Part shown: piece by piece, positions 49,342 through 55,719 of the stretch | Layout of the letters: every line of letters starts with the position of its first letter | Numbering within the stretch: the first letter of the stretch is position 1 | Source: Vibrio gallaecicus | Lineage (GTDB): Bacteria; Pseudomonadota; Gammaproteobacteria; Enterobacterales; Vibrionaceae | Assembly (NCBI RefSeq): GCF_024347495.1 | Contig: NZ_AP025490.1 | Location: forward strand, 558,001-622,000 | Direction: 5' to 3' | DNA: 64,000 nucleotides | Made by a program: the position numbers and the translations under genes | The notes under the pieces: model-generated | What the model was told of the DNA's origin: nothing | Seen by the model: the letters and a program-made list of their open reading frames with translations, nothing else | Database searches by the model: none

Positions 49342-50073
49342 CTATTGAATCCCTAACTGCTCTTTTAATACTTTCAAATAGCGCCGGCTCACTGGGATCT
49401 CAAAGCCAGTTGAAGTGATGATTTCAGCCAAACCATTCTCTAAAAGCTTTATTTCTTGAATCCATTGTATATTCACTAAAAACTGCCTGTGACAGCGAAT
49501 CAAATGAGTTTTTTCCTCTAGTACCTTTAGTGTCAGTTGTGAGCAAGCAGTTTGTGTTGAGCTTCTTACATGAACACCACTAATATCAGAGTAAGCGCAC
49601 TCGACTGATTTACTCGACATAATCACAATTCTGTTATGCCCAATACAGGGAATTTGCTCTAAATTTTCAGGTGCGATTTCATTAACACTTTGCACTGGTA
49701 GAGTGAGCCCTTGGTTGTGCACCTTACTTAATCTAGTCACGCTTTTTTTCAGGCGCTGTGGTTCTACGGGTTTAAGCAAGTAATCAAAAGCATTGTCTTC
49801 AAAAGCTTGAATCGCATATTGATCGTAGGCAGTAACAAAAACAACGTAAGGCATAGAATCAGGGTCGAGCATGCTAAGTAATTCAATTCCAGTAACCTGT
49901 GGCATTTGAATATCAAGATAAACCACATCGGGCTTGAGTTGGTTTATTTTCTTCAAACCTTCAATCGCATTACTTGCTGAGCCAATCACTTCCACACCGC
50001 CAGTTTCAAGAAGCAGCTCCGTTAACTCCTCTCGTGCAAACTGTTCGTCGTCGATGACTAATGCCTTCAACAT
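49342..50073 (-). CDS. btsR: LytTR-family response regulator BtsR (YehT-like)
   Basis: Response regulator partnered with BtsS; in E. coli the pair senses extracellular pyruvate and activates the pyruvate transporter gene btsT (yjiY). 243 residues: receiver domain with phospho-Asp in VVYLDIQMPQVTG and Lys in LLKPVEPQ; C-terminal LytTR DNA-binding domain (about 140-243). AAGGAG before the ATG, 73 bp after btsS. The cstA-type gene nearby has upstream repeats fitting the BtsR motif. Confidence 0.9.
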   Translation of the reverse strand: MLKALVIDDEQFAREELTELLLETGGVEVIGSASNAIEGLKKINQLKPDVVYLDIQMPQVTGIELLSMLDPDSMPYVVFVTAYDQYAIQAFEDNAFDYLLKPVEPQRLKKSVTRLSKVHNQGLTLPVQSVNEIAPENLEQIPCIGHNRIVIMSSKSVECAYSDISGVHVRSSTQTACSQLTLKVLEEKTHLIRCHRQFLVNIQWIQEIKLLENGLAEIITSTGFEIPVSRRYLKVLKEQLGIQ

Positions 50074-50146: not shown

Positions 50147-51847
50147 CTAAACCTGATTATGAGTATGTGATTGGAAATGATCTTGCTTAGGGATCATAAA
50201 GCTCATTCGGGTAAATTGCTGTGGAATACATTCTATTTTTAATGAAGATTGAGCGCCAAATAGATGAGTGAGTCGCTTATCTACAATTTCCATGCCTAGC
50301 CCTTGATGGTTATCCTCGGGATCTTGGTAATTACCAGCATTGTCTTCGACTGTAATTTTAAAACCATGAGCAGTTTCTTGGCTGTATATTCGAATGCATC
50401 CACCTTCGAGTAAGTTCGATATCCCATGTTTAATGGCGTTTTCAACCAAAGGTTGCAAAGTGAAGCTTGGAATCTTCAAGTCATATAAACTCGGGTCTAT
50501 CTCCCAAATAATTTCAAGCCGATCAGTAAAGCGAGCTTTCTCAATCGTAAGATAGGAATTGACGTGAGCAAGTTCATCTTTGACCGTTACCGAGCTGATG
50601 TTTTGCTTGAGGTTACTGCGGAAAAATTGAGAAAGGTGCTGTATTAATCCTCGCGCTGTATCCGGATCTTTTCTTGTAACTGCACTAATGGTATTCAAAG
50701 CATTGAACAAAAAATGTGGGTTTACCTGTGCGTGTAAAAGCTTTATTTCGGCTTGAGTAAGTAAGGTTTGCTGTTGCTGATAATTACTAAAAAGTAGTTG
50801 GCTTGAAAGCAGTTGGGCAATACCTTCAGCCATAGACATGTTGATGGTAGAAAATAACTTTAGCTTAGGTTCGTACAGCTTTATTGTGCCGACCACCTCA
50901 TCACCTGAACGTAATGGAATAATGAGTGCAGATCCTAATTTACAATTGGCAGATAAGGAGCATTGGTATGGAGTATCTTTACCATCCAGATAAATAATAT
51001 CGTTTTTATTCATTGCTTCGAGGGTGGAATGCGAAGAAATTGGCGTATTGGGTTTATGGTGTTCATCGCCAATGCCTACAAAAGCTAAAATTTTCTCTCT
51101 ATCGGTAATAGCGACAGCACCAACATTGGTTTCCTCATAGACAATACGAACAATTTGCTCTGCGTTTTTTGAATTAAACCCACCATGTAGTATCCCCACA
51201 GAGCGCTCTGCAATGGTCAAAGCTCGGCGAGAGAAGGTCGCAGAATACTTCTCAAAAATGGTTTTTTTATCTTGGATAATGCTCATAAAGAGTGCAGCAC
51301 CACATGAGTTTGCGATAATCATTGGCGCAGCAATATCAGAAACAAGCGCGTAAGACTGAGCAAAAGGCTTGGCAACGATCAGTAAGACGAGCATTTGGAT
51401 AATTTCGGCAAACAATGTGATTGAGAAAACAACCATAGGGTTAAATAGTTGCTCCGTTTTATTCCTGCGAACTAAATAAATATGAAGTAGCCCGCCAATT
51501 AGACCTTCGGCTGTGGTAGAAATGGCACAAGCAAGGTCGGTAAAGCCCCCTAATGAATATCGATGAATTCCTCCTGTTAGCCCAACGGCGAAGCCAACTA
51601 CAGGACCTCCAAATAACCCGCCCATGACCGCTCCAATCGCTCGTGTATTAGCAATGGCGTCATTGATTTGCAAGCCAAAATACGTACCCATGATACAAAA
51701 TAATGAGAATACGACGTAGAGACTGAACTTATGTCTTAGTCGAGAAGAAACATTGAGTAAAGGAAGGAAAATTGGCGTTTTACTTAGCATGTAAGCAAGT
51801 ACTAAGTAGACGCACATTTGTTGAAGTAAGGAGAGAACCAGTTCCAT
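50147..51847 (-). CDS. btsS: LytS-type sensor histidine kinase BtsS (YehU-like)
   Basis: Membrane histidine kinase, pyruvate sensor by analogy with E. coli. 566 residues: an N-terminal 5TM-LYT domain (about 1-195, with GGLFGGPVVGFAVGLTGGIHR region), a GAF domain (about 215-345), and a His_kinase domain with phospho-His in QVNPHFLFNALN, then an ATPase domain with PLVENAIKHGI. AAGGG precedes the ATG. Immediately upstream of btsR; the two form an operon. Confidence 0.91.
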   Translation of the reverse strand: MELVLSLLQQMCVYLVLAYMLSKTPIFLPLLNVSSRLRHKFSLYVVFSLFCIMGTYFGLQINDAIANTRAIGAVMGGLFGGPVVGFAVGLTGGIHRYSLGGFTDLACAISTTAEGLIGGLLHIYLVRRNKTEQLFNPMVVFSITLFAEIIQMLVLLIVAKPFAQSYALVSDIAAPMIIANSCGAALFMSIIQDKKTIFEKYSATFSRRALTIAERSVGILHGGFNSKNAEQIVRIVYEETNVGAVAITDREKILAFVGIGDEHHKPNTPISSHSTLEAMNKNDIIYLDGKDTPYQCSLSANCKLGSALIIPLRSGDEVVGTIKLYEPKLKLFSTINMSMAEGIAQLLSSQLLFSNYQQQQTLLTQAEIKLLHAQVNPHFLFNALNTISAVTRKDPDTARGLIQHLSQFFRSNLKQNISSVTVKDELAHVNSYLTIEKARFTDRLEIIWEIDPSLYDLKIPSFTLQPLVENAIKHGISNLLEGGCIRIYSQETAHGFKITVEDNAGNYQDPEDNHQGLGMEIVDKRLTHLFGAQSSLKIECIPQQFTRMSFMIPKQDHFQSHTHNQV

Positions 51848-52371: not shown

Positions 52372-53871
52372 CTATGCAGTTTTAGTGACTGCTTTATTTT
52401 CATCAGCTGATTCATCTTGTTCATTTGCGTAGTCACGTTCGCCTTTCCCTTTGGAAATCTTGATGACATAAGCGGTAATCAATAGTGCAGATACAACGCC
52501 GACAATAGTCGATAATTGCATTGGTAAGCCAAAACCAAGTTGGCTGTTACTTAAAATAAAGGTGATACATACTGTTGTCATGAAAATAGCTGGAACGGTT
52601 GTTATCCAGTGCAATTTATTATGGCGTAGTAGGTATGCGGATGCTGTCCACAGCATCATGACTGCGGTTGATTGGTTAGCAAAACCAAAGTAGCGCCAGA
52701 TAATACCGAAATCTACTTGAGTCAAAATGCCACCTAAAACAAACAGAGGTAATGCCATTAGTAGGCGGTTACGCAGTGTTTTCTGTTCCATGTTGAAGTA
52801 TTCAGCAAGGATAAGACGGCTTGAACGGAAAGCTGTGTCACCAGAAGTGATTGGTAGAATAACCACGCCAAGGAAAGCAAGGATACCACCAAATACACCC
52901 AGCAAACCAAATGAAGCGCTGTATACCACGTTACCCGGACCACCGTTTGCAATCGCGTCAGACAGAGATTCAACTGAACCGAAGAACGATAGAGCAAGTG
53001 CACACCAGATTAGAGCAATGATACCCTCACCAATCATTGCACCGTAGAAAACGAAACGGCCGTTCTTTTCATTTTCCATACAACGCGCCATAAGTGGTGA
53101 CTGAGTCGCGTGGAAACCTGATATAGCGCCACAAGCAATAGTGATGAATAGTGCAGGCCAAAGTGGTAGGTCATTTGGATTCATGTTGGTGAACATGTCT
53201 TTCATCTCAAAGCCACCCATGATTTGGTGCTCGTCTGATAAGCCAATAGCAGTGATTAATCCAACAGACATGAAAATCAGCAGTGCGCCAAATAGTGGGT
53301 AGAAACGACCAATAATCTTATCTACAGGGACAACAGTAGCGATGATGTAGTAGGCAAAGATAATTACAACCATTGTAGACATCGACATGGTGAAATCAGT
53401 TTGGTCATTGACTAGGTTAGTAATCATACCTGCAGGTGCTGAAACAAAAACAACCCCAACAAGAAGTAGTAGGACAATGGCAAAGATATTCATAAAGTGT
53501 TTTGCGCCATTACCTAAGTAACGTCCAGTGATAGTAGGAACTGAAGCTCCGCCATTACGGATAGATAACATGCCAGAGAAGTAGTCGTGAACTGCGCCTG
53601 CAAATACACAGCCTAGAACAATCCATAACATTGCAGCAGGACCGTATAAAGCCCCCATAATAGGTCCAAATATTGGTCCAACACCTGCGATGTTAAGTAA
53701 TTGAACTAAATATACTTTAGGTGTCGACATGGGTACGAAATCCACGCCATCTTGTTTGGTAATTGCTGGGGTTTTACGGTTTTCATTGATACCGAAAACC
53801 TTTTCGATAAAAGTACCGTAAATAAAATAGCCACCAATTAAAGCTGCTACGCAAGTTAGAAACCACATCAT
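52372..53871 (-). CDS. cstA: CstA-family pyruvate/peptide transporter
   Basis: Inner-membrane carbon starvation protein family. E. coli members CstA and BtsT import pyruvate (CstA was first linked to peptides). 499 residues, the short form found in vibrios, with about thirteen transmembrane segments. Family motifs: LLNIAGVGPIFGPIMGALYGP, VHDYFSGMLSIRNGG and GAISGFHATQSPLMAR. The C-terminus is an acidic tail. It lies next to btsSR, and the 5' region has seven BtsR-like half-sites, so pyruvate-induced expression is likely. It could equally be named btsT; sequence alone does not decide. Confidence 0.9.
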   Translation of the reverse strand: MMWFLTCVAALIGGYFIYGTFIEKVFGINENRKTPAITKQDGVDFVPMSTPKVYLVQLLNIAGVGPIFGPIMGALYGPAAMLWIVLGCVFAGAVHDYFSGMLSIRNGGASVPTITGRYLGNGAKHFMNIFAIVLLLLVGVVFVSAPAGMITNLVNDQTDFTMSMSTMVVIIFAYYIIATVVPVDKIIGRFYPLFGALLIFMSVGLITAIGLSDEHQIMGGFEMKDMFTNMNPNDLPLWPALFITIACGAISGFHATQSPLMARCMENEKNGRFVFYGAMIGEGIIALIWCALALSFFGSVESLSDAIANGGPGNVVYSASFGLLGVFGGILAFLGVVILPITSGDTAFRSSRLILAEYFNMEQKTLRNRLLMALPLFVLGGILTQVDFGIIWRYFGFANQSTAVMMLWTASAYLLRHNKLHWITTVPAIFMTTVCITFILSNSQLGFGLPMQLSTIVGVVSALLITAYVIKISKGKGERDYANEQDESADENKAVTKTA

Positions 53872-53951
53872 AACGTGTTATCCCTGAGTTGAATGAGTAA
53901 GTCAGAGTGCATACTAGAATAAGGAAATAGAAGCTTCACGCGATACTGAAG

Positions 53952-54080
53952 CGAGTGGTCGAATGGCGAGTTTAGTGGTGCTTATCTGAATTAAGTGGTT
54001 TGGAGGAAGCTTGAGTGGTTTAGGGTAAGTGCGAGTGGCTAAATAAAATGTCTAAGTGGTTATTAACCTATTTAAGTGGT
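53952..54080 (-). promoter_or_regulatory. Array of seven BtsR-like half-sites upstream of cstA
   Basis: AGTGGY elements on the plus strand start at 53954, 53974, 53994, 54014, 54034, 54055 and 54075, i.e. steps of 20, 20, 20, 20, 21 and 20 bp. On the cstA strand they read ACCACT(T/C)A or close variants; four are exact matches to the E. coli BtsR motif ACC(G/A)CT(C/T)A as I recall it. E. coli uses two such half-sites 13 bp apart. A candidate -10 TATTCT lies at 53916-53921 on the minus strand, putting the array from about -45 to -170. Confidence 0.85.
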
Positions 54081-54271: not shown

Positions 54272-54616
54272 ATGAAAAGAATAACAACGTGTTTATTGGC
54301 TATGGCTGCATTGTCAGGTTGTACGGCAAACCTTCAAGATCTAGCAAATGAAGGTGACTGGGTAGAAATAGGTTATCGAGACGGTGTGAAAGGAAACCCT
54401 CAACGTCTATATAGTGAGTTATCAGCATTAGGCAGTGTTGATCAAGCGAGTTATGAAACTGGTTATCAGCAAGGTGTAGAAGAGTTTTGCGATCCGAACC
54501 ATGCCTTTCAAATTGGGCTGTCAGGTCAGTATTACGAAGGAGTATGCGCAGGCTTCGAGCATGCTCAGCAGTTCCGTATGGAGTGGCAACGTGGTTGGAC
54601 TGAATACAGTAACTAG
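54272..54616 (+). CDS. DUF2799 family lipoprotein
   Basis: 114-residue exported lipoprotein: signal sequence with lipobox LSGC (lipidated Cys about residue 17), followed by a DUF2799-like domain recognised by repeated GYRDGVKG, GYQQGVEEFC and Y-E-G-V-C-A-G-F motifs. Two cysteines in the mature part (EEFC and EGVC) could form a disulfide. AAGGGA precedes the ATG. Function unknown. Confidence 0.8.
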   Translation: MKRITTCLLAMAALSGCTANLQDLANEGDWVEIGYRDGVKGNPQRLYSELSALGSVDQASYETGYQQGVEEFCDPNHAFQIGLSGQYYEGVCAGFEHAQQFRMEWQRGWTEYSN

Positions 54617-54654: not shown

Positions 54655-54705
54655 AACGCGCTTTTTATCTTTAAGACGATTAGAGATGCAAAGCGCGTTT
54701 TGTTT
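54655..54705. terminator. Putative terminator after the DUF2799 gene
   Basis: AACGCGCTTT/AAAGCGCGTT 10-bp stem with a 25-nt loop, followed by TTGTTTTT. Confidence 0.6.
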
Positions 54706-54710
54706 TTAAC

Positions 54711-55719
<1,009 letters not shown>

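Follow-up and report, generated by a model that had tools for sequence, protein, structure and literature searches.

Why should the promoter of a single transporter gene carry seven copies of a half-site for one regulator? The question is raised by positions 53952-54080 of the window, that is, the 64,000-nucleotide stretch of Vibrio gallaecicus DNA analysed here, where seven cores of sequence AGTGG, or CCACT when read on the cstA strand, stand in a single orientation at plus-strand positions 53954, 53974, 53994, 54014, 54034, 54055 and 54075. The core-to-core steps are 20, 20, 20, 20, 21 and 20 bp in this order or, read towards the cstA gene, 20, 21, 20, 20, 20 and 20 bp. The half-site consensus of Escherichia coli BtsR is written ACC(G/A)CT(C/T)A; four of the seven 8-mers read on the cstA strand match it in full, two are one base off and one is two bases off. 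Counted from the promoter, the BtsR-like half-sites, all on the minus strand, are ACCACTCG (53952-53959, starting at -88 from the cstA ATG), ACCACTAA (53972-53979), ACCACTTA (53992-53999), which together with the first two forms a near-invariant triplet, ACCACTCA (54012-54019), GCCACTCG (54032-54039), the weakest copy, and ACCACTTA again as the sixth (54053-54060) and the distal seventh (54073-54080). The coordinates, copy number, orientation, steps and match tally given in the original prediction were all reproduced from the core positions and the comparison of 8-mers. The seven-copy phased array is real, and phased arrays at this promoter are conserved across the genus.

Chance was rejected as the origin of the array. 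The longest chain at steps of 19-22 bp numbers seven in the window and one or two in all 300 first-order Markov windows, for either core, and chains of pentamers at 20 or 21 bp reach at most three anywhere in the 64-kb window, apart from the AGTGG (seven) and GTGGT (four) of the array itself. Markov versions of the promoters reach a chain of two in 2 of 2880 cases, and the opposite strand has at most one site in a control set of 144 loci, seven of which repeat a genome and two of which come from other families. Among 880 background slices cut from 40 stretches, 13 contain at least three sites, these slices including the arrays themselves; 26 of the 40 stretches lack CstA and were excluded from all array counts. 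In the 5.13-Mb genome, the pattern CCACT-N15/16-CCACT-N15/16-CCACT has five matches, all within the array, so that no second array of this exact pattern is present (arrays built from CCGCT would escape it), and a scan for CCRCTYA-N12-14-CCRCTYA yields a single pair outside the array, located, judging by the layout of the locus, inside a 570-aa frame. This frame is presumably recG. The reversed triple-CCACT control pattern also matched in some genomes. Two genomes of the set, G177 and G198, have 41 and 19 triple-CCACT matches, far above the other genomes, perhaps because of an unrelated tandem repeat, and a further CCACT triple outside the cstA promoter (G066:C1:2411745-2411791) might be a second BtsR target or a chance match.

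Tandem duplication was likewise rejected as the main source of the copies. Tandem Repeats Finder (TRF) reports no tandem repeat at the site, and within arrays of at least five copies the similarity among spacers barely exceeds that of shuffled ones (identity of 0.295 vs 0.255), so the array is not a satellite-type repeat of similar whole units. Given such dissimilar spacers, few of the copies can be recent duplicates, and without selection they would be expected to decay; four arrays with one spacer pair each at 75% identity or more indicate occasional duplication of a unit.

The array lies upstream of a minus-strand gene encoding a 499-aa CstA-family transporter (52372-53871; Pfam CstA, PF02554), next to which stand, on the same strand, btsS for a LytS-type histidine kinase (50147-51847; Pfam 5TM-5TMR_LYT and His_kinase) and btsR for a response regulator with receiver and LytTR domains (49342-50073). 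The btsR product passes the NCBIfam equivalog model PRK11697.1 for BtsR (360.9 bits; cut-off, 246) and is 48% identical to BtsR of E. coli K-12. The array, originally placed a few hundred bases from btsSR, is in fact separated from btsS by about 2.1 kb and from btsR by 3.9 kb; the distance of about 0.5 kb to btsS is that of the cstA gene. BtsU, the pyruvate transporter of V. campbellii, is CstA-like, and its gene is reportedly controlled by BtsSR, as described by Going in 2021. By its position adjoining btsSR, the window gene is likely to be the counterpart of btsU. On the other side of the array, a divergent gene for a DUF2799 lipoprotein occupies 54272-54616 on the plus strand. Control of this gene was considered as the reason for the array and rejected, since all 14 named loci without a DUF2799 match in the flank keep three or four copies; the array is thus independent of the DUF2799 gene. 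A short 16-bp tandem repeat of about 2.6 copies follows this gene at 54705-54750.

A relative of the transporter (E-value of 1e-100) is encoded in 218 of the 227 Vibrio genomes and BtsR (1e-60) in 214: both are found in 213 genomes, the transporter only in five (G131, G155, G032, G118 and G240), BtsR only in one (G129, 79% complete, with no transporter match) and neither in eight. Upstream DNA was read for 216 of the 218 cstA-bearing genomes, G133 and G139 being omitted (cstA match without the N-terminus), and the chain was defined as the longest contiguous run of RCCRCT at 20 or 21 bp before cstA. Among the 211 genomes that also encode BtsR, chains of one, two, three, four, five, six, seven, nine and ten sites occur in 8, 26, 74, 43, 45, 5, 5, 1 and 4 genomes, respectively; hence at least two contiguous sites are present in 203, at least three in 177 and at least four in 103, and when one or two lost registers are allowed, at least three sites are found in 191. 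In the four ten-copy arrays every step is exactly 20 bp. In the five genomes with the transporter and without BtsR, by contrast, the chains number 1, 1, 0, 1 and 0 sites. The association between BtsR and the sites is significant by Fisher's test (p = 3e-7 for at least two sites and 1.5e-4 for at least three), a test that ignores kinship and involves a small BtsR-less group. The check proposed with the original prediction, a search of other cstA promoters, thus came out in its favor, and its fallback of chance expansion is contradicted by the conservation of the array in relatives together with its absence from all five BtsR-less cstA genomes. The phased array is most likely a conserved, expandable operator, and BtsR its regulator, as judged from the half-sites, which equal those of the E. 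coli YehT (BtsR) oligonucleotide and of K-12 btsT, from the BtsR equivalog encoded 3.9 kb away and from the co-occurrence of BtsR with at least two sites (203/211 vs 0/5). Long arrays are dispensable, given that 34 of the 211 BtsR genomes have fewer than three strict contiguous sites and eight have one.

Beyond Vibrio, 15 loci representing the family's other genera show chains of one (1 locus), two (4), three (7), four (2) and five (1), and two loci from other families show one and two sites. Among the named loci, that is, the best 80 of the 242 encoding a relative, ten copies are found in V. harveyi NBRC 15634, V. owensii and V. jasicida, seven in V. fortis, and three in Grimontia (2 loci), Enterovibrio (2) and 10 of 12 Photobacterium loci. 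A tree of the transporter gene, built quickly from these best 80 of 242 plus the window, places the window strain in a pair with Vibrio sp. 99-70-13A1, within a set of 18 rows that includes V. profundi and V. splendidus relatives. Arrays of at least five copies require at least 12 changes on this tree and arrays of at least seven at least four changes, three of them forced by starred branches; such repeated changes of copy number imply that the tails were lengthened or shortened repeatedly.

The E. coli operator was reportedly described with two half-sites by Kraxenberger in 2012, and the original prediction likewise held that two suffice in E. coli. At the sequence level this is incomplete: upstream of K-12 btsT (NC_000913.3) there are three phased sites, GCCGCTCA, ACCGCTTA and ACCACTCA, at -184, -164 and -143, with steps of 20 and 21 bp. 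The third in-phase site, GCCGCTCA at -184 from the btsT ATG, falls within the published binding oligonucleotide; the YehT oligonucleotide for yjiY, as given in the available text of PMC4847170, contains all three. The E. coli BtsR (YehT)-btsT (yjiY) system resembles the window in half-site, orientation, steps of 20-21 bp, CstA-type target and regulator family, and differs in having three sites (20 and 21 bp) and a 716-aa target, whereas the window has seven sites at mostly 20 bp and a 499-aa target near btsSR. The array shows what would be expected of a BtsR operator, namely half-sites in direct repeat, a step of about two turns (20-21 bp) and a place upstream of a CstA-family gene, except for a restriction to two half-sites, there being seven; as K-12 itself has three, such a restriction is unsound as a criterion. 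Across the wider order, 30 btsT-type loci, picked by similarity to E. coli BtsT as the best 30 of 44 genomes with BtsT or a paralog, have chains of three (6 loci), two (9), one (14) and zero (1), and 21-bp steps dominate (14 vs 7 of 20 bp); five of these loci (L449-L453), with 59-62% identity over the N-terminus, resemble paralogs. The ceiling in this set is three sites, and arrays of at least six were seen only in the genus Vibrio.

The promoter-proximal part of the array is tied to a fixed architecture. A -10-like element, TAGTAT (53911-53916, minus strand), lies at +43 from the start of the first half-site, and in 147 of 177 loci a TANNAT likewise begins exactly 43 bp away from where the proximal site starts, despite the variable distance of that site from the start codon; at +43, E. 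coli has CAACAT, not TANNAT. A consensus promoter scan of the window returned two sites, with 2.3 expected, none of them at TAGTAT. When 130 Vibrio genomes are aligned at the proximal site, sites 1-3 hardly vary, and two elements outside the known half-site are conserved as well: an AAA before site 3 and a CTATtCG block between sites 2 and 1 (53960-53966, minus strand; CCATTCG in the window), the conservation of which equals that of the half-sites at some positions. Chains were allowed steps of 20 and 21 bp only, which number 524 and 58, respectively, and 21-bp steps make up 4 of 203, 9 of 177, 27 of 103 and 14 of 60 in successive intervals starting from the proximal one. On the 5' side of the strict chain, in-phase sites with at most one mismatch are enriched, occurring at 20 bp in 39 of 177 loci, at 42 bp in 33 of 177, at 63 bp in 25 of 177, at 83 bp in 21 of 177 and at 103 bp in 26 of 176 (the median over distances is 1.7%), with strict sites lying beyond a lost register included in these counts. 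A scan for the CRP pattern TGTGA-N6-TCACA with at most one mismatch, run without a control set, matched 10 of 211 loci.

From sequence comparison and with good confidence, we interpret the array as a BtsR operator that expanded in Vibrio and consists of a three-site core and a cooperative tail. External pyruvate, the presumed signal and substrate in this strain, would be sensed by BtsS, which would activate BtsR; BtsR protomers would then bind the 8-bp half-sites, direct repeats 20 bp apart, each aiding its neighbor. The three promoter-proximal sites would be the core activation module, the nearest of them ending 35 bp upstream of the -10-like element, a position that would allow contact with RNA polymerase. 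The distal sites, of which there are four here and as many as seven in the V. harveyi group, would act as a cooperative extension stabilizing the proximal complex, such that the promoter might fire at a lower level of active BtsR or for longer.

The alternative that fares best against this interpretation, although we regard it as unlikely, is a BtsR operator in which only two or three proximal sites work and the distal copies are leftovers, neutral or weakly held, of a kind that readily appears where BtsR already binds a promoter. In its favor are the conservation of the proximal triplet, which far exceeds that of the remaining sites, the 74 of 211 genomes with exactly three sites and the 34 with fewer, the larger share of 21-bp steps in intervals 3 and 4 (27/103 and 14/60), and the frequent changes of copy number on the tree of the best 80 of 242 loci and the window (at least 12 changes for five or more copies). 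The comparison with the nearest relative points both ways. The fixed letters of the cores changed at 0 of 28 positions, the R positions at 2 of 14 and spacer letters at 16 of 85 (p = 0.011 for fixed letters vs spacers, a modest test from one pair of genomes), which speaks for the preferred interpretation; the most distal step of that relative, 19 bp, speaks for the leftovers. Leftovers are nevertheless hard to reconcile with at least four strictly phased sites in 103 of 211 genomes, with the four genomes that carry ten copies, each step exactly 20 bp, and with spacers too dissimilar for the copies to be mostly recent duplicates.

If the tail is indeed cooperative, as the preferred interpretation has it, how would BtsR be arranged on it? 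The E. coli paralog YpdB is, according to the accessible text of PMC4847170, a monomer in solution and occupies its two repeats one after the other and cooperatively, such that binding to the second depends on the first; by analogy, one protomer per half-site would be the natural extension. The BtsR-like operator upstream of a CstA-family transporter that was originally proposed holds, being conserved and co-occurring with BtsR, whereas the accompanying notions of several BtsR dimers on one helix face and of a steep switch are not supported. Vibrio arrays show neither an excess of even counts nor alternation of strict and loose intervals, either of which would be expected from pairing into dimers: among chains of at least three, odd lengths (3, 5, 7 and 9 in 74, 45, 5 and 1 genomes) outnumber even ones (4, 6 and 10 in 43, 5 and 4), and the first two intervals are both rigid (4/203 and 9/177 at 21 bp); no sign of loading in dimer pairs is thus apparent. 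A 20-bp step drifts by about 34 degrees on DNA of 10.5 bp per turn, and the 121 bp from the first to the last site of the window correspond to 11.52 turns at 10.5 bp per turn and to 12.1 turns at 10.0; strict phasing on one face thus fails at the former value and holds at the latter. Hence, the constant would be the step between neighbors rather than the face, unless DNA in the bound state has 10.0 bp per turn. As for steepness, in a toy nearest-neighbor lattice model with joint occupancy of the two proximal sites as the readout and a cooperativity of 50, the half-maximal activator level is 0.163, 0.079, 0.043 and 0.040 for 2, 3, 7 and 10 sites, and the Hill-type slopes are 1.71, 2.08, 1.95 and 1.90. 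The model predicts that sites beyond three or four would lower the threshold without steepening the response. A bolder version, which we put forward tentatively, is that BtsR polymerizes head to tail with one protomer per 20 bp, winding round the helix, with a rigid three-site module that activates and a Vibrio tail the length of which sets the pyruvate needed.

An improbable alternative is that the distal sites titrate or store active BtsR, as a local reservoir or decoy that shapes the duration of the expression pulse and not its onset. The transient induction of E. coli yjiY (PMC5552118, available part) and the rapid successive promoter clearance by YpdB (PMC4847170, in the sections accessible) are compatible with such a role, as is the fact that this array is the only BtsR-like one found in the genome by the triple-CCACT and CCRCTYA-pair scans; fixed-phase sites placed beside a promoter on the same DNA, however, are more than a decoy needs. 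Far less probable still is the use of the array by a regulator other than BtsR. It draws on the Vibrio BtsR motif being apparently given only in Fig 3B of PMC5552118, as far as the available text goes, and is opposed by half-sites identical to those of the E. coli YehT oligonucleotide, by the co-occurrence with BtsR and by btsSR adjoining the transporter gene. A functionless array produced by chance or simple tandem-repeat expansion has a negligible probability: the four arrays with one similar spacer pair each are outweighed by Markov windows with at most two sites, the lack of a TRF repeat and the conservation of the array in the same promoter genus-wide.

The expanded BtsR operator favored here has partial parallels among known systems. 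V. campbellii, with its BtsS/BtsR pair and single pyruvate transporter BtsU (PMC10653868, available text), and V. harveyi resemble the window in BtsS/BtsR and the transporter, V. harveyi NBRC 15634 having ten copies; the accessible parts of the literature on BtsSR-BtsU in these species yielded no statement of an array. The LytTR proteins RcoM1 and CoxC bind three direct repeats of 8 bp, spaced by about two turns, and efficient CoxC binding needs all of them, according to the available portion of PMC11347149; the half-site is unrelated to that of the window, and CoxC is a repressor. The tandem sites of YpdB at yhjX and of PlnC also show cooperative LytTR binding on direct repeats, but with two sites (PMC4847170, text available in part), and BldC forms cooperative multimers on direct repeats but is MerR-like and belongs to a different family (PMC5859096, likewise in part). 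No report of LytTR arrays of four to ten repeats was found in open-licence papers. Thus, BtsSR-BtsU and three-repeat LytTR operators are known, and an array of up to ten BtsR-like sites appears, as far as these papers go, to be new.

In the accessible text of PMC4847170 and PMC11347149, the number of repeats per LytTR operator is two and never exceeds three; here there are up to ten at one promoter. The presence of 3-10 copies in most relatives, compared to the two usually described, suggests that copy number is a setting adjusted by evolution, and the natural copy-number variants among the 211 genomes, which belong to different species, are a ready series for asking whether the extra sites affect threshold, steepness or duration. 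The Vibrio arrays also point to the third site in E. coli btsT, and should head-to-tail polymerization prove true, a LytTR regulator would form filaments, and the description of the E. coli operator with two sites would be a truncated view. V. harveyi, whose array is among the longest, also shows unusually high pyruvate release (2837 uM in the available text of PMC5552118, where its strain naming is mixed with that of V. campbellii), a link that we offer as a lead only.
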